A stretch of 64,000 nt of DNA from a virus. The stretch is from IMG/VR virus record IMGVR_UViG_3300017963_000021, positions 24,062 to 88,061 of that record; one strand, 5' to 3'. Position 1 is the first letter of the stretch; each line of letters starts with the position of its first letter. Shown piece by piece: positions 23,108 to 58,035 of this stretch. The notes under the pieces were generated by a model. That model did no database searches. It was not told the DNA's origin and saw only the letters and a list, made by a program, of their open reading frames with translations. Both the position numbers and the translations under genes were made by a program.

Positions 23108-23327
23108 GTCGACGATAATGTTACCGCCAGAATCGCAGGGCGAAACAGAAGATCTTCATCCGCAGAGTATGCAGGAATCTTTGTGGTACGAAGAAATGTA
23201 TGAATGTCCGATCGACGCTGATCACGGCATCGTCAGCGACGGGAAGCGTTTGTACTGTACACAATGCGGCGTGTACTGGTTGTACTCACAAGTCGCGAAA
23301 ACAAACCAGATGCAGGGGAACAACTAA
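23097..23327 (+). CDS. small protein with single zinc knuckle, 76 aa
   Basis: ATG 23097 lies 11 bases before the previous stop. The sequence YECPIDADHGIVSDGKRLYC ends in CTQCG, giving Cys residues spaced for a zinc ribbon with a His. It precedes the SPFH gene with a TAATG overlap, so the two are coupled. Confidence 0.72.
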   Translation: MTNKSTIMLPPESQGETEDLHPQSMQESLWYEEMYECPIDADHGIVSDGKRLYCTQCGVYWLYSQVAKTNQMQGNN

Positions 23328-24298
23328 TGCGGAACATAATATCTTTAAGCGCTGGCGTCGGTCTTGTTTCAATACTGGCGTTGTTCTTTGTGTTCGGACT
23401 GACCGACATCGATCCGGGTGAAACCGGTTTGAAAGTGAAGAAGATCGGCATCGGGCAGGGAATGCAGGACGACACACTGGACACCGGTCTGCACTGGATC
23501 AATCCGGTCACGTACGATGTGCCGATCTACGATGTACGCTTTCGCCAGTACGTGCTGAAAGACGTCGAGACACAAACGAAAGACGGTCAGCCGGTACTGA
23601 TCGACGTGTCGCTGGAAATGGGACTGCAGCCTGATCGCGTGCCGTGGATCCACGAAAACATCGGGCCGGACTACTGGGAAGAAGTCGTGTTCCCTGCACT
23701 GCGCAGCGCGATACGCGACAAGGTGCCGTCGAAGCTGTCGGATGAAATCTACACCAGCGAAGGGCGTGAAGGCGTACAGCAGGCGATTCAAACCATACTC
23801 GACAACAAGCTGAAGGAACGCGGCTTCCTGATTACCGTCAACCTGCGCGACATCGATTTCACGAATGCGCAGTTCGTTGCGACACTGGAAGAAAAAGCCA
23901 TGGCCGCGCAGAAGGTGATCATCGAAGAACGCAAGGCGGAAGCGGCGGAGAATACCGCCGTCAAGATCGCGAACATCGCCGAAGGCGAGAAACAGAAGCG
24001 CATCAAGGAAGCCGAAGCAGAACGCGAGAAACGCCGGCTGGAAGGTGAAGGCGAACGACTGAAGCAGGAAGAAATCGCGAAGGGCATTCTGGCGGTGAAG
24101 TCTGCAGAAGCCGAAGGCGCGCGTCTGTTGACGAACGCGTACACAGGACCGGGCGCGCAGTACGTCGCCGCGATCGAATGGGCGCAGAACCTTGGACCGA
24201 ACGTCAAGGTCTACGGCGTGCCGACAGGTGCACCGGGAACGAATTCACTTATGGATCTGAACGGCGTACTCGAAAACGCGTTCAAGATCTCGCGCTAG
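23327..24298 (+). CDS. SPFH/prohibitin (band 7) membrane protein, HflC-like
   Basis: ATG 23327 is fixed by the TAATG overlap. Residues 5-25 form an N-terminal membrane anchor. The SPFH domain (DPGETGLKVKK, HWINPVTYDVPIYDVR, VLIDVSLEMGL) runs to about 190, and a long Ala/Glu/Lys coiled coil (AEGEKQKRIKEAEAEREKRR) to about 265. Host prohibitin/HflKC assemblies form membrane rings that control FtsH proteolysis. A phage copy could mimic or block them, or build a membrane microdomain. It is 323 residues, close to HflC. Confidence 0.85.
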   Translation: MRNIISLSAGVGLVSILALFFVFGLTDIDPGETGLKVKKIGIGQGMQDDTLDTGLHWINPVTYDVPIYDVRFRQYVLKDVETQTKDGQPVLIDVSLEMGLQPDRVPWIHENIGPDYWEEVVFPALRSAIRDKVPSKLSDEIYTSEGREGVQQAIQTILDNKLKERGFLITVNLRDIDFTNAQFVATLEEKAMAAQKVIIEERKAEAAENTAVKIANIAEGEKQKRIKEAEAEREKRRLEGEGERLKQEEIAKGILAVKSAEAEGARLLTNAYTGPGAQYVAAIEWAQNLGPNVKVYGVPTGAPGTNSLMDLNGVLENAFKISR

Positions 24299-26883: not shown

Positions 26884-27151
26884 CAGCGAAGAAGACCGGC
26901 TGCGCAAGCAGGTCGAAGATCTGAAAGACGAAATCGCCGTCTTGCAAGAAGTTATTGTCACGGCGAATCTGCATCTATGCTGCGGCGAAGGCGTTGACCT
27001 GCTGCACTACTGGGGCAGCTGTTCACGCGATGGTTTTGGTCGATCCGAATCGAAAGAATACAAGCAATACGAAGCCGGACTGCGCGCGGCACTGAAGAAA
27101 ATACTCGACGAAAACGAAAGGACCGAATACGATGACACCAGAACAACTTGA
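26870..27151 (+). CDS. coiled-coil hypothetical protein, 93 aa
   Basis: ATG 26870 starts 14 bases inside the previous gene. N-terminal coiled coil (LRKQVEDLKDEIAVLQEVIV), then a Cys/Trp-containing loop (HLCCGEGVDLLHYWGSCSRD). The last 20 bases overlap the second MazG-like gene. Function unknown. Confidence 0.7.
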   Translation: MGILNSEEDRLRKQVEDLKDEIAVLQEVIVTANLHLCCGEGVDLLHYWGSCSRDGFGRSESKEYKQYEAGLRAALKKILDENERTEYDDTRTT

Positions 27152-27653
27152 CGACTATAGCGGGCGGGCATTCAAGTTCGCCATCTACCCGAAGGCCGGC
27201 AGCGACATTGCGTATCCAGCGCTGGGGCTGTGCGGCGAGACATCCGAAACGTACATGAAGCTGGCGTCGAAGTCGGTCATGACCGACGACATCCTGAAGG
27301 AATGCGGCGACGTGCTGTGGTACTGCAACGCCGTCGCGATCACGTGCGGGCGCACACTGGGCGCGATACAAATTGTCGGCGGACACTACGGGTCGGCACT
27401 GGATGCCGCCGGCTGGATGTTCGTTCATGCCGGCGCGATCGCCGAACAGGGGAAGAAGGTCATCCGGGGCGGGGAAGCGCTCGAAGGCCGGCGCGACAAG
27501 ATCCTTCACCATCTGGGGCTTCTGCTGGGCGCGCTGCTGTATATCATCGACACCATGGCCGGCACGATGGAAAGTGTCGCAAACGACAACCTGTCAAAAC
27601 TGGGCGACCGGGAAGACCGGGGGCTGATCCATGGCGACGGGGACAACCGGTAA
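27132..27653 (+). CDS. MazG-like pyrophosphohydrolase (second copy)
   Basis: The MazG pattern is visible: YPALGLCGETSETYMKLA (E-x-x-E, near 28-45), then ILKECGDVLWYCNAVA (E-x-x-D near 57-61). A long extra helical C-terminus (to 173 residues) may give a second half-domain. It differs in sequence from the 25384 protein, so this window holds two independent members. A nucleotide-pool role is likely. Confidence 0.78.
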   Translation: MTPEQLDDYSGRAFKFAIYPKAGSDIAYPALGLCGETSETYMKLASKSVMTDDILKECGDVLWYCNAVAITCGRTLGAIQIVGGHYGSALDAAGWMFVHAGAIAEQGKKVIRGGEALEGRRDKILHHLGLLLGALLYIIDTMAGTMESVANDNLSKLGDREDRGLIHGDGDNR

Positions 27654-27967
27654 TGCCGTGTCGCGGACCGTGCGGGCGTACGCGTGACGGTGGGCAGCGC
27701 TTCACTGACTACAGCACTGAACCGGCAGCGTGTTATCTGGATGCAGGGCATCCGGGGCCGCATTCGTGGGAACCGCAGTACGGGGCAGACCATGCGCGCG
27801 GGATCGCGATCGCAGAAGCCGCTGAAACCGGGCGCGTCACGATGAAGCAGCTGCTGTGCAGCGCGTGTCGGGCGCTGGCACGCATGAACTACGATTTCGA
27901 TGAAAACCCGGCGTTGTCGCAATGGTGGGATGAACACAAGAAAGGGGATTTGAAGAAATGCAAGTGA
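27653..27967 (+). CDS. Cys-containing hypothetical protein, 104 aa
   Basis: ATG 27653 overlaps the previous stop (TAATG); the long frame upstream is a shadow of the MazG gene. The N-terminus MPCRGPCGRTRDGG and the pattern CYLDAGHPGPHSW resemble small Cys/His-rich phage proteins. A second pair is CSACRAL. Possible zinc binding. Confidence 0.68.
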   Translation: MPCRGPCGRTRDGGQRFTDYSTEPAACYLDAGHPGPHSWEPQYGADHARGIAIAEAAETGRVTMKQLLCSACRALARMNYDFDENPALSQWWDEHKKGDLKKCK

Positions 27968-28263
27968 AGGGCTTCACGATCATCGAACTGGTCATCGTGG
28001 TGTCCATTCTGGGCATTCTGGCGGCGGTCGTGGGCAAGTCGTGCACTGTCGTGGAAAAACGCCTGATAGGCGACGACAGGCCGGCAGAACGCGAGTACAG
28101 CGAGAAGGCACGACCGGGGCCGGATCCCGTGGTACAGGGACAGCCATTCCCCGGCGACGTGCACCGCTACGACACCGAAGACGGGCCGATCTGGATCATC
28201 AAGCATACCGAATTCCCGAACATCACGTGCGTCGCGACACGCGCGGGGCTGTGGTGTAAATGA
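27958..28263 (+). CDS. type IV pilin/pseudopilin-like protein
   Basis: The N-terminus MQVKG / FTIIELVIVVSILGILAAVV is a textbook class III (prepilin) signal: a short basic leader ending in Gly, then F, T, and E at +5, and a long hydrophobic helix. Prepilin peptidase would cut after G5. The remaining 75 residues are far shorter than a normal pilin globular domain. They end ITCVATRAGLWCK, with two Cys. The protein may insert into or block host type IV pili or type II secretion; that role is inferred. Confidence 0.82.
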   Translation: MQVKGFTIIELVIVVSILGILAAVVGKSCTVVEKRLIGDDRPAEREYSEKARPGPDPVVQGQPFPGDVHRYDTEDGPIWIIKHTEFPNITCVATRAGLWCK

Positions 28264-44307: not shown

Positions 44308-44496
44308 ATGCGAGTACGCAAGGTACAGGATCCGATGCGACGCGGGCGTGAGTGCTTCCAGTGGGGACACAGCGGTCGCGTGTACTGTGGCGCGCAAGGC
44401 CGGGAACGTGCAGCAGCTGAAGGCAAGCGGCTGAAGGAAGATAACCCGTTCGCACGTGAACCGCTGGACGCGGTACGGTCGAAGCGTGGCGGATAA
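44308..44496 (+). CDS. small Cys-rich protein upstream of the giant gene (62 aa)
   Basis: ATG 44308 behind AGAGGGGTAGCA. It has the pattern CFQWGHSGRVYCGAQGRERA, a short block often found near MuF-type head proteins. Basic. It overlaps the next gene by 11 bases, which points to coupled expression. Confidence 0.68.
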   Translation: MRVRKVQDPMRRGRECFQWGHSGRVYCGAQGRERAAAEGKRLKEDNPFAREPLDAVRSKRGG

Positions 44497-47400
44497 TTTT
44501 AACACCGCACTAGCGAAGGCACTGCTGAAGCACGACATCGATCTGCTTCGGTTTGACGCTGCGCTGCGCAAGGAAATCTTTTCGACCCTGAACGGAATGC
44601 AGGGCGACATCATTCGCAAGATCAACGCAGCCGGCACCGCGAAGGGCGCGTCTGTTGCCGCCGTTAACAAGAAGCTGAACCAGCTGACCGGGTCCGTCGC
44701 GCCGACTGTCAGCAAGGCATACAAGCAGATCACCGACACGGCGAATTCGCAGCTGACAAAGGTCGCGGGCGTTCAGCAGGAAATCATGTTGAACGAACTG
44801 AAGCACGCGGTGACTGTCGATCTTGGTTTCAAAAAAATATCGCCGGACATCCTGAAGCTGTTACCGGGTCGCGCGATGATCGAAGGCGCGCCGTTCGACA
44901 AGTGGTTCAGCAAACAGATACCGGCATTTCAAGACGCATTCCTTGCAGAAATGCGCGAAGGTTTACTGGCTGGCGAAACGATTGACCAGCTGTCGCGACG
45001 TGTCAGGGGCACCGCTGCGGCTGGTTTCAAGGACGGCATCATGCACGCCAGCCGCCGGCAGGCGCAGACACTGGTACGATCATCGGTACTTGCGACAGCC
45101 AACAAGGCGCGCGAATCCGTGTACCAGCGGAACAAGGACGTGATCAAGGGGATGCAGTGGCTGTCTACGCTGGACGGGCGTACGACCGACATCTGCATCG
45201 CACTGGATCAGCAAGCATGGGACATGGACGGGAAGAAGCTGCCGGGAACGACATCGGCATGGCAGGGTCCGCCGCCGGCGCACTTCAACTGCAGGTCGAC
45301 ACTTGTCCCTGTGATGAAGTCATTCAGCGAGCTAACCAAAAACCCGAAGATCAAGAAGAAGCTGCAGACCATAGCGCCGCGCAAGCGCGACGGACTGCGC
45401 GCTTCGATGAATGGTGCAGTATCCGACAAGCTGGACTACGAAGACTGGCTGCGACAGCAGTCGCCACAGTTCCAGCTGGACGTCTTAGGATCGACGAAGT
45501 TCCGCTTGTGGCAATCCGGGCAGCTGTCGCTACGTGACATGATAGACCAGTCACATAACCCGCTGCCGATCGATGCGCTGTTAAAGAAAACAGGTGCGCC
45601 GACGTTGACGTTAGAGCAAGCGTTAGCAGAAGCGACCGACCATCTGAAGATCGCCGATACGAAATTCAAATCGGGGAAACAGTGGTATGAAGCGTTCGAC
45701 GAACCGGTTTCAAAGCAGGACATTTATGCACAACTTGACGACACGACGGTCGCGGCACTGGAAGACACTGCCGCCAGTTTGCAGAAGCAAGCGACGACCG
45801 CATCCATTTACCGCAATACCGACGGCACATGGAGCGCAAGCAGAAAGAAAGACGTCCACGACGACATCCTTCGGAAGATCTTCACGAAGAAACGCGTCGC
45901 GGCTGCTACCCCCGATGCTGGCGAAAAGCCGATCTATTCAGTTTTTGGCGGTCGTGGCGGAAGCGGAAAGGGGTCTTTCACGACGCCGAAAAAGAACGGC
46001 GGGATCGGCGCTGTCGACAAAGACAGTACCATTGTTCTTGACGCGGATGAAATAAAAAAGCTGCTGCCCGAATACAAGGGCTTCAACGCCGCAACACTTC
46101 ACGAAGAAAGTCTGCATATCATCAACCGGGCGACGTCCATTGCGGAACGTCTGGGGCTTAATGTCGCGCACGACATCACGATGAAGGGGATTAACACCCC
46201 GCTGAAGTGGATCGACCGCTTCAAGAAAGCAGGCTACGACATACACGGCTACTACATGCACGTCCCGCGCAAGGAAGCGGCACTGCGTGCGGTGAAGCGT
46301 TTCGTCGGTCCGAAGAAAGACTTCAGCGGTCGCTTCGTACCGCCGGAAGTGATACTGGCGAACAAGGTCAACGAAGTGCACTGGGACCAGATGAAAAAGC
46401 ACTTCAAGAAGTGGGAGTTCTACGACAACCAAGGCGCGAAGCCGAAGATGATCGGCAAAGGGGGAGTGTCACTTGAACAACAGGCGAAGCAGCTTGCCGA
46501 TGATCTGGCAAAGTACAAGGACCAAGTCGCAAAAGGCATCAAACCGTCGAAGGGCGTGCAGGCTTCGTATAACTCGCTGCCGATCGCGGAAAAGAAACTA
46601 ATACGCGCAGAGATCGAACAGAAGATCGCCGCGCAGCAGGCCGCAGCGAAAGCAGCCGCAGAGAAGGCCGCGCAACAGCAGGCCGCAGTCGAAGCGAAGC
46701 AGCAGCTGGAAACCATCAAGGCGCAGAAGGGTACGTTCGAGAAGCGCGCGTATGACAAGCTGAAGAAGCAGGGCGCGCTTGACGGACTGAACGATACCGA
46801 CATTCTGGAAGCCATCGCGAAGCAGGTCGAGATCGACAAGGCTGCGAAGAAGATCAGCGACGGCATCGTCAACTACAAGAAAGCGATCATCGCCGGCAAG
46901 GTGCCGCCGCCGGCTGCGCAGAAAATCTTCAACGAACTGGACGACGCGAAGCAGGTCAAGATCGTCAAAGAGATCGACAAGAAACTTGCCGACAACGCTG
47001 TCGCATCGAAGGTCACGCCGAAAGAAGCGCTAGACGAATACGACGCACTGGTGAAGAAGTACAAGGCACCGGGCAAGATACCTGACAAGAAGTTCAAACA
47101 GATCTACATCAAGATGTCGACAGCTGACGGGACTGTCCCTGAACACGGGATACTGACCGCAATGGATGCAGCGATCGACACGCTGAAAAAGAACAACGAC
47201 GTCGACTTGCTTGCGACATGGAAGCAGGGCATGTTGATCGGGCACCGTGACAGCCTGCTAGAAAAAGTCGCGGCAAAGACAGCCGCGCGTGCACAGAAAG
47301 CGCTTGAAGCTGACTTCAAGAAAGCAAAGAAAGAACTGAAGTTCCTGAAAGCAAGTCTTGAAGTCGAAGACACTATCGCCGGCAAGGGCTTCGACTACAA

Positions 47401-50400
47401 CGTGTTCACGGACAAGATGGGGTGGAAGATGGAAATCCCTGTGTCCGCGATTACGGAAGGCGCGCCGGCTGCGAAGAACTTCCTGAATGATCTACCCGGT
47501 AAGATCACGACGCTGCTCGGTGATGACGACGCCCTGAAGAACTTCCTGCAGCACAAGTCGTTCGACGTCGTCGATGTAACGCTGGATCTAGCGCCGTCGG
47601 TTTCCGGTTCCGTGCTGAAGCGCAAGATGAAGAAGTTCACGGACTACGTCGAAAAGAACCCGCTTAATGTTGACAACCTGATGGACGCGTCCAAAATTCT
47701 GAACGATGAACTAGGCGGGTTCATTACGGCACCGGCTATCGATCCGCTGGAAAGCGTGCAGGCTGCGAAGAAGCTGAAGCTATTCCTGCAGGACGCGTAC
47801 CTGAAGACCAAGACACTGCAGTCGAATGACGAATGGTTCAACAAGGTTATGGCGAACCAGTCGTACACAGATGTGCCGAAGGCAACCGGCGTCGCTGCTA
47901 TTCCTGTCGCGAATAACGTTAAAATCGCGATGGCGAAGTTCATGGACGACATAGACGTCGGCGATCTTGATAGCGTCAACGTCATGAAGATTATCAAGAC
48001 GACGCAGCCGTACTTCGATGATGCGCTGACATACGACGATTTCATAAGCATGTCAGACATCGAAATGGAAACGTTCATAAAAACAATCATGCCGAAGCTG
48101 AATGCCGTCCTAGACGACGACAAGCTACTGGCGAAGCATCTGGCATCGAAAACAATTAACGACGTTGACGTCGCAAAGGCGAAGAAGGTACGACCGGCGA
48201 AGAAGACAGCAGTCGACATCGAAGGCGAGAACATCAACGCCGTACAAAGTCAGGCTTTCGAATACTACATCGAAATCGAACAAGTGCTACCGAAGATCGA
48301 TTCAATCGACGTCGACGAATTTGTTTTTCTTGTCAACAAGTATGAAACTTTTCTGGGTAAAAAGCCGACCGCGTATTCGGCGCTTGAAGACATCGCCGGC
48401 GATGAACTGGCGAAGCTGGCGAAAATGTCGAAGCTTAGTGTCGAAATGCAGAACGTCACAGACAATGTGTCCGTCGCTGCGAAGATGGCGAAACCTGCGG
48501 ACGTCGACTTCGGCAAGGCAAAGGTAACTGTCGAGAAGGTCGAACCGCAGGCCGGCCCGATCGAAGCGACTACCTACAAGAAGACCATGGACGACGTAGT
48601 AGTCGAGTACGACACTCTGTCGGATCTTACGCCGTCATTCTCGAACCAGCTTGATAAAAGCGCGGTACTGCAGAAGCTGTTCGTCGAAGCTGACGACTTC
48701 CCGAAGGGCAAGGCGTTGGACGACTTTTTGTTTTCCGAAAAGATCGACGAATTCGTCGACAAGATGGAAAGCAAAATGCTGACGCTGACCACGGACGACG
48801 CAGCGTTGCAGAAGTTCCTGCAGACGAAGAAGTGGGAAGACATCCCCGACTTCGATGACACGTTGACAGCGGTCGGCAAGGAAGCCGCGAAAGCGTCGAA
48901 GTCTGTTACTGTCGCGCAGATCGTTGACGATGCCGAAGACGTCCTGCACGACTTCCGCTTCGGCGAACTTGACGAACTTGCGTTTCACCAGAAAGCGTCG
49001 AAGCTGCTGGGCACTGAACCGGCAGACAAGGAAATCTGGGATCTTCTGACAGCGTCGCAGATCGACGAACAGATCGACGTCGATGCTGCCGCACTGAAGA
49101 AGCTGATCCAAAGCAAGGAAGCTGCCGAAGACGCCATCAAGGCGGGCGGTAATACTGTCGCAAAGGACGCCCCGTCTGTGAAGGTCGCAGCGGACATCGC
49201 GGAAGACCAGTCGAAAACGAAGGTCAAGACACCGAAGACAGATACGCCGCCGAATGCCGAAGACATGAACCAGATCGGCGGGCAGGGCGGATCGAATTCC
49301 GGCGCGATGTATCAGGATCCCGAAACCGGGATCAAGTGGTACGTGAAGACGCCAGTGTCGGAAGACATGGTGCGGAATGAAGTCCTAGCCGCGAAGCTTT
49401 ATGAAAAGATGGGGATCGAAGTCCCTGAACTGCACATCGTCACGCGCAACGGGAAGCCGTCCGTCGCGTCAAAGATTATCGATGGACTGCAGTCGAATCC
49501 GTCGGCACTGAAAGCCGGCAAGGTGTCGGGCGTCGGCGATGGCTTCATAGCGGACGCGTGGCTGGGCAACTGGGACGTTGTGGGTCTTGGCTATGATAAC
49601 CTGCTAGTGAAAGCGAATCGCGCCATACGCATCGACACAGGCGGCGCACTGCGCTATCGCGCACAGGGCGGACTGAAGGGCAAGGCGTTCGGCAAGACGG
49701 TCGACGAAATCGATTCCCTTCGCAACCCGTCCACGAACAGCCAGTCGGCATCCGTGTTCGGCGACCTGACCGACGCGCAGCTGAAGGAAAGCGCGCGCCG
49801 TGTCGCAAACATAAGCGACGCAGAGATCCGGCAGCTTGTCCTGCTGTACGGGCCGCGCGATGTAGAGGTTGCAGAAGAATTGATCGAAACACTGATCGCG
49901 CGCAAGAAATACATCAAGCAACGTTTCAAGATCCGGGCGACGCGCAAGGCACCAGAAAGCAAGCCGGCAGCGCCGCCGAAGGATACTGGCAAGGACGTCA
50001 CCGACTTCGAGGTTCAGCAGATCGAAGACGCGCGCCTGAACGGTTACGTGTTGCACCGCGACAAGGACGCGATCGAAGATCAAGCCGTACTGGCATGGAA
50101 GGAACTAGACGCGAACGGGGATCCGCGTTCGATGCTGCAGATGAAGCTGCGCGGTGATGCCGCTGAAGGTCTGGATCGTGCTGTCGGGCGTGCATCGAAT
50201 TCCGGCTTGCCGTCTATCGAAACGGCACCGCTGGACGACCTGATAAAGAAATCGATCATCGGTCTGAAGCACCGCGTGGAGACTGGCGGCACGTTCGACA
50301 ATACAATCGAAACGCGATTGAACGATGCGCTGCAGGCGTCAAAGAAAATACGCAAGCAAATATCTGACGCGATCAATGAAGGCACGCTGGATCGCGCTGT

Positions 50401-51634
50401 TCTGAAAACGTTCGACAGTACATACGACGAATGGATTGACGCGATCAAGGAAGCGGTGATTTATTACGACGCCGACGACAAGATCGAAAAGCACTGGTTC
50501 GGTGACAAGCTTTTCAACACCGGCAGGATGGGCACGCTACAGCCTGTCGCAAAGAAGGCCGCAGACGACGACGTGATCAAGTGGACGAAGCGTCGCGGCG
50601 AGTTCGAACACAAGGACGTGAACAACGGTATAGCACGCGTGAAAGGCGGGTCGTCGGAATGGGGCACGATGTACGAAACCACGATCGACGACGTCACTGT
50701 GCGCTACTGGGCCGGCATGGACAACGATCAGGTGTTCGCTATTAAGAACAGGCTGGAAGTTATCGCACCGGGCAAGACACACGAACAGGCGCTGAATACA
50801 CTGCGCAAGCTTGGCATTAACGTCGACCGCGCGACAGACTTCGATGCTGAAGAACTATATCTGCGGCAAATCATGGCGCACCGTCGCGAAGGGTTCGGTG
50901 ATTTCAATGCGTCGATTAACCGTATCAAGGATCCTGCAAAGCGCGTTCAGCGTGCGCGTGATCTTGTTAGCGCGGCGATCGGTAGGGATGTAACCGAACT
51001 ACCCATGTATAACTTCAAAGGCCAGTATCAGGCGTTCGGGCACGGACAGCGGCATCTTATGCGCCCGGATCTGTTCGGCAAGGAATGGGACGACTTCGCG
51101 GAGAACTACCGCTTGCATCACAGCATCACGCAGGGCGACATCGTGTCGTCGCTCGAAGCGATCCTGAACAGCGGCGGGCAGATGGCACCGACGACAGACA
51201 AGCTGCGACGCGGCATACCGATCGGCGGTATGTCGCCATCGTCCGACATGGGCACAGGTGGCGCGTCGTATTTCTTCACGCGCATAAAAACCGCGAACAG
51301 CGCGGCACAGAATTCCGGCTTCGTCTGGAAGGCCGATCATCTTCGCCGGCTGGATTCGATCAGCTATAACCACGACGCGTTCGGCAAGGTGAAGGGTCAA
51401 TACGTTCAGCGCAACCGCAAGACGGGCATCGAAGAATGGAAGCAAACGGCGGGGTCCGGCGGTAACGAAACGATCTTCAAGAACAGCTTGTCGATTTTCG
51501 ATGATCTGGAAAGTATCAACGTCAAAAGCGAATCGCAAAAGAAAACTGTGGTACGCTTGTTTAAGAAGCACGGCATCAATGAATGGCCGGACGGTCGTTC
51601 GCTCGACGAAATTGTGAAAGTGATAGGGTGGTAA
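44486..51634 (+). CDS. giant MuF-zeta-kinase-like multidomain protein (2382 aa), effector candidate
   Basis: GTG 44486 (MADNFNTALAKALL) is preferred over GTG 44456. In order: a MuF/SPP1-gp7 head-morphogenesis domain near 180-285 (LDGRTTDICIALDQ, PPAHFNCRSTLVP); a zeta-toxin-like P-loop kinase near 475-655 (FGGRGGSGKGSF, HDITMKG); an Ala/Gln/Lys coiled coil near 660-760. About 800 residues of degenerate helical repeats follow, then a HipA/PI-kinase-like fold near 1590-1815 (GGQGGSNSGAMY, WYVKTPVSEDMVRNEVLAAK). The end near 2208-2382 (GMSPSSDMGTGGASYFFTRI) resembles modules of polymorphic toxins. MuF proteins are often packaged and injected, so the extra domains may act in the host cell. Confidence 0.82.
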   Translation: MADNFNTALAKALLKHDIDLLRFDAALRKEIFSTLNGMQGDIIRKINAAGTAKGASVAAVNKKLNQLTGSVAPTVSKAYKQITDTANSQLTKVAGVQQEIMLNELKHAVTVDLGFKKISPDILKLLPGRAMIEGAPFDKWFSKQIPAFQDAFLAEMREGLLAGETIDQLSRRVRGTAAAGFKDGIMHASRRQAQTLVRSSVLATANKARESVYQRNKDVIKGMQWLSTLDGRTTDICIALDQQAWDMDGKKLPGTTSAWQGPPPAHFNCRSTLVPVMKSFSELTKNPKIKKKLQTIAPRKRDGLRASMNGAVSDKLDYEDWLRQQSPQFQLDVLGSTKFRLWQSGQLSLRDMIDQSHNPLPIDALLKKTGAPTLTLEQALAEATDHLKIADTKFKSGKQWYEAFDEPVSKQDIYAQLDDTTVAALEDTAASLQKQATTASIYRNTDGTWSASRKKDVHDDILRKIFTKKRVAAATPDAGEKPIYSVFGGRGGSGKGSFTTPKKNGGIGAVDKDSTIVLDADEIKKLLPEYKGFNAATLHEESLHIINRATSIAERLGLNVAHDITMKGINTPLKWIDRFKKAGYDIHGYYMHVPRKEAALRAVKRFVGPKKDFSGRFVPPEVILANKVNEVHWDQMKKHFKKWEFYDNQGAKPKMIGKGGVSLEQQAKQLADDLAKYKDQVAKGIKPSKGVQASYNSLPIAEKKLIRAEIEQKIAAQQAAAKAAAEKAAQQQAAVEAKQQLETIKAQKGTFEKRAYDKLKKQGALDGLNDTDILEAIAKQVEIDKAAKKISDGIVNYKKAIIAGKVPPPAAQKIFNELDDAKQVKIVKEIDKKLADNAVASKVTPKEALDEYDALVKKYKAPGKIPDKKFKQIYIKMSTADGTVPEHGILTAMDAAIDTLKKNNDVDLLATWKQGMLIGHRDSLLEKVAAKTAARAQKALEADFKKAKKELKFLKASLEVEDTIAGKGFDYNVFTDKMGWKMEIPVSAITEGAPAAKNFLNDLPGKITTLLGDDDALKNFLQHKSFDVVDVTLDLAPSVSGSVLKRKMKKFTDYVEKNPLNVDNLMDASKILNDELGGFITAPAIDPLESVQAAKKLKLFLQDAYLKTKTLQSNDEWFNKVMANQSYTDVPKATGVAAIPVANNVKIAMAKFMDDIDVGDLDSVNVMKIIKTTQPYFDDALTYDDFISMSDIEMETFIKTIMPKLNAVLDDDKLLAKHLASKTINDVDVAKAKKVRPAKKTAVDIEGENINAVQSQAFEYYIEIEQVLPKIDSIDVDEFVFLVNKYETFLGKKPTAYSALEDIAGDELAKLAKMSKLSVEMQNVTDNVSVAAKMAKPADVDFGKAKVTVEKVEPQAGPIEATTYKKTMDDVVVEYDTLSDLTPSFSNQLDKSAVLQKLFVEADDFPKGKALDDFLFSEKIDEFVDKMESKMLTLTTDDAALQKFLQTKKWEDIPDFDDTLTAVGKEAAKASKSVTVAQIVDDAEDVLHDFRFGELDELAFHQKASKLLGTEPADKEIWDLLTASQIDEQIDVDAAALKKLIQSKEAAEDAIKAGGNTVAKDAPSVKVAADIAEDQSKTKVKTPKTDTPPNAEDMNQIGGQGGSNSGAMYQDPETGIKWYVKTPVSEDMVRNEVLAAKLYEKMGIEVPELHIVTRNGKPSVASKIIDGLQSNPSALKAGKVSGVGDGFIADAWLGNWDVVGLGYDNLLVKANRAIRIDTGGALRYRAQGGLKGKAFGKTVDEIDSLRNPSTNSQSASVFGDLTDAQLKESARRVANISDAEIRQLVLLYGPRDVEVAEELIETLIARKKYIKQRFKIRATRKAPESKPAAPPKDTGKDVTDFEVQQIEDARLNGYVLHRDKDAIEDQAVLAWKELDANGDPRSMLQMKLRGDAAEGLDRAVGRASNSGLPSIETAPLDDLIKKSIIGLKHRVETGGTFDNTIETRLNDALQASKKIRKQISDAINEGTLDRAVLKTFDSTYDEWIDAIKEAVIYYDADDKIEKHWFGDKLFNTGRMGTLQPVAKKAADDDVIKWTKRRGEFEHKDVNNGIARVKGGSSEWGTMYETTIDDVTVRYWAGMDNDQVFAIKNRLEVIAPGKTHEQALNTLRKLGINVDRATDFDAEELYLRQIMAHRREGFGDFNASINRIKDPAKRVQRARDLVSAAIGRDVTELPMYNFKGQYQAFGHGQRHLMRPDLFGKEWDDFAENYRLHHSITQGDIVSSLEAILNSGGQMAPTTDKLRRGIPIGGMSPSSDMGTGGASYFFTRIKTANSAAQNSGFVWKADHLRRLDSISYNHDAFGKVKGQYVQRNRKTGIEEWKQTAGSGGNETIFKNSLSIFDDLESINVKSESQKKTVVRLFKKHGINEWPDGRSLDEIVKVIGW

Positions 51635-57003: not shown

Positions 57004-58035
57004 ATGCGCGCATTGATAACGGGCTGTACTGGACAGGATGCAGCCTATCTGTCGGCGCACTTGCTGTCGCGTGGCTACAAGGTAGTCGGCACTTCGCCAC
57101 GACGCAGCGATGACGGGAAGAACATGTGGCGCTTGCAGGAAGTCGGCGCACTTGATCATCCGAACTTCGAGTATCAGCCGCTGGACGTAACCTGTGCCGC
57201 ATCTGTTACGCGGGCGGTTGCCGAAAACCAGTTCGACCAGATCTACAACCTTGCAGCGCAGTCGTTCGTCAAGGAATCCTTCGACTCGCCGATCGCGACT
57301 GCGCACATCAACTACATCGGCGTTCTGAATTTGCTGGAAGCTATTCGCCAGCATTCCCCCGACTCGCATTTCTATCAGGCGAGCACGTCGGAAATGTTCG
57401 GACTGGTCAACGCCGAACGGCAGGACGAATCGACACCGTTCCATCCGCGCAGTCCGTACGGTGTCGCAAAAGCCGCCGCGCATTACGCCGTCCAGAATTA
57501 TCGCGAAGCGCACGATCTCTACTGCTGTAGCGGGATCCTGTTCAATCATGAATCCCCGCTACGCGGTATCGAATTCGTGACGCGCAAGATCACCGACGGC
57601 GTCGCCGCGATTGTTGCCGGCGATCGCGAGTTCATCACACTAGGCAACACGGAAGCGCTGCGCGACTGGGGACACGCGGCTGACTATGTTCGCGCGATGA
57701 ATCTGATGCTCGAACAGGATGAACCTGACGACTTTGTTATCGCGACAGGTGAAACGCACAGCGTGCAGCAGTTCATCGATCTGGCGTTCGCTGTCGCGGG
57801 GCTTGACGCGGTCGACTACATCAAGCAGGACGAACGCTACATGCGCCCTGCAGAAGTGCCGATGCTGCGCGGTGACGCGACAAAGGCGCGCGATAAATTA
57901 GGCTGGGCACCGTACATCACTTTCAACGATCTGGTGTACGACATGATGATCAACGATCTACATCGTCACGGTATCGACTACGTGGCGCTTATTTCCGAAT
58001 CAGGGGGACTGCAACATGCTGCCACAAACAGGTGA
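57004..58035 (+). CDS. gmd: GDP-mannose 4,6-dehydratase
   Basis: 343 residues with the extended SDR fold. The NAD(P)-binding motif is TGCTGQDAAYL near 7-17. The GMD marker is STSEMFG near 127-133, with the catalytic YGVAK (Y near 151, K near 155). It converts GDP-mannose to GDP-4-keto-6-deoxy-mannose, precursor of GDP-fucose or GDP-rhamnose. The N-terminal GCTGQD and the RSPYG block distinguish GMD from other SDR enzymes. It starts 9 bases after the transferase and overlaps the methyltransferase by 20 bases. Confidence 0.88.
   Translation: MRALITGCTGQDAAYLSAHLLSRGYKVVGTSPRRSDDGKNMWRLQEVGALDHPNFEYQPLDVTCAASVTRAVAENQFDQIYNLAAQSFVKESFDSPIATAHINYIGVLNLLEAIRQHSPDSHFYQASTSEMFGLVNAERQDESTPFHPRSPYGVAKAAAHYAVQNYREAHDLYCCSGILFNHESPLRGIEFVTRKITDGVAAIVAGDREFITLGNTEALRDWGHAADYVRAMNLMLEQDEPDDFVIATGETHSVQQFIDLAFAVAGLDAVDYIKQDERYMRPAEVPMLRGDATKARDKLGWAPYITFNDLVYDMMINDLHRHGIDYVALISESGGLQHAATNR

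Follow-up and report, generated by a model that had tools for sequence, protein, structure and literature searches.

Phages recurrently encode small proteins that begin with a class III (prepilin) signal, and the protein analyzed here, from the window (the 64,000-nucleotide stretch under study, bases 24062 to 88061 of an 88,061-base virus record), joins such a signal to a C-terminal domain of its own. At a probability of about 0.48, we regard it as a phage mini-pilin that enters the shaft of a host type IV filament and stalls or alters the pilus or pseudopilus, a reading in which we infer processing, assembly, and benefit to the phage. The original prediction, which proposed from the DNA letters that a phage prepilin-like protein could cap, jam, or alter such a filament, is as a whole partly supported. 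The features discussed are collected in Table 1.

Table 1. Features in and around the prepilin-like gene (window coordinates)
Feature	Position	Strand	Description	Basis
MazG-like gene	27132-27653		Upstream of the prepilin-like gene	phrog_229
Shine-Dalgarno-like AGGGGA	27943..27948	+	9 nt before the ATG	Read from sequence
Prepilin-like protein gene	27958..28263	+	ATG start, 101 aa	PF07963/TIGR02532 matches, codon bias
Leader MQVKG	27958..27972	+	Cleavage by host prepilin peptidase predicted after Gly5 (residue -1)	Matches to PF07963/TIGR02532; cleavage inferred
Hydrophobic helix, residues 8-27	27979..28038	+	Predicted membrane helix; pLDDT about 84 for residues 11-20	AlphaFold2
Glu +5 codon (residue 10)	27985..27987	+		Translation; role of Glu5 from PMC10191384, PMC5207764
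Linker, residues 28-65	28039..28152	+	Mostly low confidence and modeled as disordered; many Pro, Gly, and charged residues	AlphaFold2
Small C-terminal beta-domain, residues 66-100	28153..28257	+	Predicted; block pLDDT 80-85	AlphaFold2 (single sequence)
Small protein, 86 aa	28745..29005	+	GTG start, Sec-type signal, Cys-rich end; 480 bp downstream of the prepilin-like gene	
Terminase large subunit	Start 29971		About 1.7 kb downstream of the prepilin-like gene	phrog_979
Portal gene	Start 31453		Downstream of the prepilin-like gene	phrog_145

An intact gene with a prepilin signal

Translation of the open reading frame (ORF) gave MQVKGFTIIELVIVVSILGILAAVVGKSCTVVEKRLIGDDRPAEREYSEKARPGPDPVVQGQPFPGDVHRYDTEDGPIWIIKHTEFPNITCVATRAGLWCK, which opens with the class III signal MQVKG/FTIIE (MQVKG/FTIIELVIVVSILGILAAVV as read from the translation). 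Signals of this class consist of a hydrophilic leader, the last residue of which is Gly or Ala, and 20 to 25 mainly hydrophobic residues after it (PMC10191384). The window protein has this leader and hydrophobic run (MQVKG/FTIIELVIVVSILGILAAVVG), and its residue 10 is the Glu +5 that is usual, though not universal, in the pilin superfamily. It matched PF07963 (N_methyl) with E = 4.7e-6 and 26.4 bits (curated cut-off, 21.2) and NCBIfam TIGR02532 with 26.9 bits (curated cut-off, 16.3), which confirms the KG/ cleavage motif and Glu +5 originally noted; across the whole 88,061-base record it was the single N_methyl match. As a test against chance, a regular expression comprising the leader, G/F-T-x-x-E, and an uncharged 13-residue run matched once in the window and in none of 150 dinucleotide-preserving shuffles (n = 150), so chance arising from base composition does not explain the signal. 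The G+C content by codon position (0.62/0.43/0.77) matches that of the terminase gene (0.61/0.43/0.75) and, in general, that of the structural genes nearby, indicating that the frame is coding. The ATG overlaps the 3' end of the preceding gene, and a scan for promoters and terminators returned no more sites than in shuffled sequence.

Prepilin-like proteins in other phages

The original prediction called proteins of this type uncommon in phage genomes, which is wrong as stated. With the window protein as query, tblastn (E limit of 10) reached 150 annotated phage records (of those listed, almost all matched through the prepilin segment), and a scan of IMG/VR with a prepilin pattern found at least 120 stretches. 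Among the IMG/VR matches listed, 104 were complete ORFs, 27 of them 110 aa or shorter; their median of about 148 aa indicates that the set also includes pilin-like proteins of full size, and some of the contigs may include bacterial sequence. Cultured phages carry versions of widely differing length, including PX29 (31 aa), Aeh1 (28 aa), PhiW-14 (44 aa), nt-1 (61 aa), KVP40 (66 aa), KPP10 and other Nankokuvirus (59 aa), and Acibel004 (107 aa), with longer examples in Vibrio phage 033B (157 aa, directly before the small terminase gene) and among cyanophage "pilins" (126 aa). Public annotation describes them as "similar to N-terminal part of fimbrial protein," "PilE-like," or "pilin," and they are also represented in PHROGs. 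A search of the open-access literature, a scope that leaves an earlier report in subscription papers or preprints possible, found no study of their function.

Two groups are among those closest to the window protein. Those of Vibrio and Aeromonas T4-like phages (KVP40.0030/NP_899278.1, nt-1 VPFG_00078, PX29p038, and Aeh1ORF040c) are likewise phage encoded and short, with a class III signal 58 to 67% identical over the first ~24 residues, but have nothing in common with it after the helix, where some of them stop. The Vibrio phage versions lie near thymidylate synthase and the Aeromonas phage versions near ribonucleotide reductase genes; the PX29 (L003 2001-2096) and Aeh1 (L006 2004-2090) proteins, which adjoin the latter, consist of hardly anything besides the prepilin signal and its helix. 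The Nankokuvirus proteins of Pseudomonas phages (KPP10 BAJ09095.1, vB_PaeM_G1, and Epa16) share the prepilin signal with Glu5 and a similar genome size (~88 kb) but end in a short, charged tail that has no cysteine.

Beyond the N-terminal signal region, the window protein is by sequence comparison an orphan, with no convincing match in any collection searched. There were no close relatives of the whole protein in the viral contigs or genome contigs searched, and the C-terminal 33 residues used as a query gave matches only at the level of chance. Phage prepilin-like proteins are a known but uncharacterized kind, to which the window protein adds an unrelated C-terminal domain.

Predicted architecture

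The earlier expectation of a tiny globular part was borne out by the AlphaFold2 model, in which the C-terminal beta-domain measures ~35 to 45 aa and comprises four strands (residues 66-73, 76-83, 90-93, and 98-100). Cys91 and Cys100 fall in the last two strands of the model and could form a disulphide. Pilins have a lollipop shape in which a long alpha1 helix packs on the head; the window protein was instead modeled with a helix restricted to residues 8-27 and, separated from it by a disordered linker, a detached beta-domain, a difference of limited weight in a single-sequence model. No structure in PDB or BFVD matched this model at E ≤ 0.001, and no pilin head was matched in the PDB fold search, which counts against a protein that acts as a filament subunit.

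Conservation of the signal in a comparison family

A family of the same architecture allowed the conservation of the signal to be measured. About 50 IMG/VR contigs (L026, L045, L088, L113, L126, L213, L215-L230, and L250-L287) encode this unnamed phage family, here called the CxxGYKF family, in which a prepilin signal precedes a small domain of the form CI(E/D)GYKF...RQ(I/V)(L/M)DEFGKGV(R/K)C; Synechococcus elongatus phage BUCT-ZZ01 (UTS52068.1) is a cultured carrier. Like the window protein, its members combine a prepilin signal with Glu5, one helix, a short linker, and a small beta-domain with a terminal Cys pair. We considered whether the window C-terminus is itself a CxxGYKF domain and rejected this, as the Cys/Gly skeleton is absent and profile comparison gave no match; what was measured in the family is therefore extended to the window protein on the ground of shared architecture and not of C-terminal homology.

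Searching IMG/VR with the C-terminal Cys/Gly skeleton alone, a query holding no information on the N-terminus, recovered 52 stretches, of which 49 had a prepilin signal with Glu5. The other three were a member with Gln at position 5 (L284), which counts against a filament subunit, the plain anchor of phage ACP17 (L279), and a degenerate copy interrupted by an in-frame stop (L277). With a narrower C-terminal pattern, the signal with Glu5 had likewise been found in 18/18 full-length members. Across 42 distinct family sequences, Gly-1 was present in all 42 and Glu5 in 41; positions +2 to +5 were nearly invariant, +1 was Phe, Met, Val, Tyr, or Ile, and most positions of the helix (6-25) had 1.2 to 3.3 bits of entropy, with hydrophobic residues interchanging. 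Synonymous codons vary at the fixed positions, so the conservation reflects purifying selection and not recent common origin. This conservation of Gly-1 and Glu5 suggests that host prepilin peptidase reads the signal and that the protein enters a type IV filament machine.

The main rival explanation, which we consider unlikely, is that the prepilin signal is a membrane anchor only and that the C-terminal beta-domain works in the periplasm, in lysis timing, envelope exclusion, or binding of an envelope protein. Acidovorax phage ACP17 (L214 372-617, ASS33915.1) offers a natural signal swap, in which a CxxGYKF-type domain sits behind an ordinary hydrophobic segment without the prepilin motif, so that the prepilin signal is not indispensable for this domain. 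Foldseek matches of the family model in turn included ACP17 (probability, 0.96) and a phage protein whose name refers to a lipoprotein attachment site (0.90). The small Sec-signal protein encoded downstream in the window adds a weak resemblance, its C-terminus (...CYSIKADGTYSGLWC) being similar to the end of the prepilin-like protein (shuffle P = 0.005; BLASTP E = 0.02); several unrelated window ORFs equaled the alignment score, and we treat the two proteins as possibly related without leaning on it. A mere anchor, however, should drift among signal types, and 49/52 carriers of the family domain have kept one type together with its Glu5; the shortest phage prepilin-like proteins, of 28 to 31 aa, moreover, have no C-terminal domain to display.

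Genomic surroundings and origin

The gene sits among small plus-strand genes of a phage that encodes its own DNA polymerase, helicase, and head and tail genes. No recognizable prepilin peptidase or assembly ATPase was found in the phage record, so that processing and assembly would use the machinery of the host. The terminase had relatives in genomes at 12 loci, all on MAG contigs and in different phyla, which yielded no host assignment, and no tRNA was found in the window. Elsewhere, the plus strand of the window encodes an SPFH/Band 7 membrane-scaffold protein (23264-24298; PF01145, E = 1.4e-21), a single ORF of 2,392 aa (44456-51634) that matches head-morphogenesis proteins over its first ~450 residues (phrog_241, E = 7e-91) and is for the larger part of its remaining length unassigned, and a nucleotide-sugar epimerase amid structural genes (57004-58035; phrog_540, E = 1.7e-74).

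Around the terminases of related phages, 80 loci totaling 754 kb contained no prepilin signal, a result that covers partial flanks and is not proof of absence; as a positive control, the same scan recovered the window gene together with 112 of 120 loci known to carry the signal. Exported Cys-hairpin proteins were also sought near these terminases, and nothing convincing was found. This lack of a counterpart in related phages, together with the orphan status of the protein, would fit a captured fragment of a bacterial pilin with no selected function in this phage. We judge that improbable, given the intact frame, gene-like codon bias, and good ribosome site, the recurrence of such proteins in unrelated phages, and the strong conservation in the CxxGYKF family.

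A proposed route into the host filament

For a mini-pilin that enters the filament, the class III signal would direct the protein to the inner membrane, where host prepilin peptidase would remove MQVKG. The free N-terminus and Glu5 would then allow docking at the base of a host pilus or type II pseudopilus, where the filament grows, and the mini-pilin, having no normal pilin head, would stall or shorten the filament, change its dynamics, or display the beta-domain on it. The phage would probably benefit by controlling a surface filament of the host while it infects, for example by excluding other phages.

Pilus dynamics are set by the ratio of minor to major pilin. On docking, Glu5 pairs with the N-terminal amine of the neighboring subunit, and a subunit that caps the filament tip has no Glu5 (PMC10191384). 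The minor pilin TcpB requires Glu5 for entry into the growing pilus but not for the start of assembly, and in the model of those authors Glu5 is also required to stall the pilus and start retraction (PMC5207764). Retention of Glu5 in the CxxGYKF family thus argues for entry into the shaft rather than capping of the tip, a conclusion that reaches the window protein through its architecture; the cap is the least likely form of the original proposal. The broader claim, incorporation into a pilus or pseudopilus, gains only indirect support, from the conservation of Gly-1 and Glu5 in the CxxGYKF family and from the published docking role of Glu5 (PMC10191384, PMC5207764). Jamming or altering of the filament is a plausible, putative outcome, and the suggested effects on receptor use and on other phages are speculation.

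Very short members of the Aeh1 and PX29 type carry no cargo, which suggests that the active part is the N-terminal helix. More tentatively, and in our estimation at well under an even chance, phages may repeatedly and independently have built mini-pilins from a prepilin signal and unrelated small beta-domains, or nothing, that poison or reprogram host filaments at their growing base. The existence of versions with little beyond the signal (Aeh1, PX29) could suit a decoy substrate that occupies host prepilin peptidase and lowers maturation of the real pilins and pseudopilins, but this is very improbable, as a decoy for the enzyme would need high expression and Glu5 is conserved although its published role is docking of subunits in the filament.

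Of these results, the recurrence of mini-pilins across phages is the more interesting, and the window protein is one orphan example. If phage mini-pilins do enter filaments, they would be natural dominant-negative subunits that show how few features of a pilin docking needs, and they would give phages a new way of controlling pili and type II secretion and provide tools to switch filaments off. The idea can be tested on the family in about 50 IMG/VR contigs and with phages nt-1 (Vibrio natriegens), BUCT-ZZ01 (Synechococcus elongatus), and KPP10-like phages (P. aeruginosa PAO1).

Comparison with known pilins and pilus inhibitors

Minor pilins and pseudopilins such as TcpB, GspH/GspG, and ComGE have a full pilin head. 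The window protein resembles them in its class III signal with Glu5, and GspG and GspH were among its best partial matches in NCBIfam. Identity as either pseudopilin was rejected, the scores being 22.9 (GspG) and 21.5 bits (GspH) against equivalog cut-offs of 88.85 and 80, with matches confined to residues 4-30.

Known phage inhibitors of pili offer the second comparison. Tip (D3112), Aqs1 (DMS3), and Zip (JBD26) inhibit type IV pili by binding the pilus motor, PilB, or PilZ, which partners it, according to the account given of them in a review (PMC11656802), and PIT4, a phage protein that disables type IV pili, acts on two-component systems (PMC10714779). Tip, Aqs1, and Zip resemble the protein proposed here in being small, phage encoded, and directed at the host pilus. 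The window protein is set apart from them by its class III signal and predicted extracytoplasmic domain, as their descriptions in the review's account include no prepilin signal (PMC11656802). If the mini-pilin reading is right, mimicry of a filament subunit would be a phage strategy distinct from that of the known inhibitors of the pilus motor.
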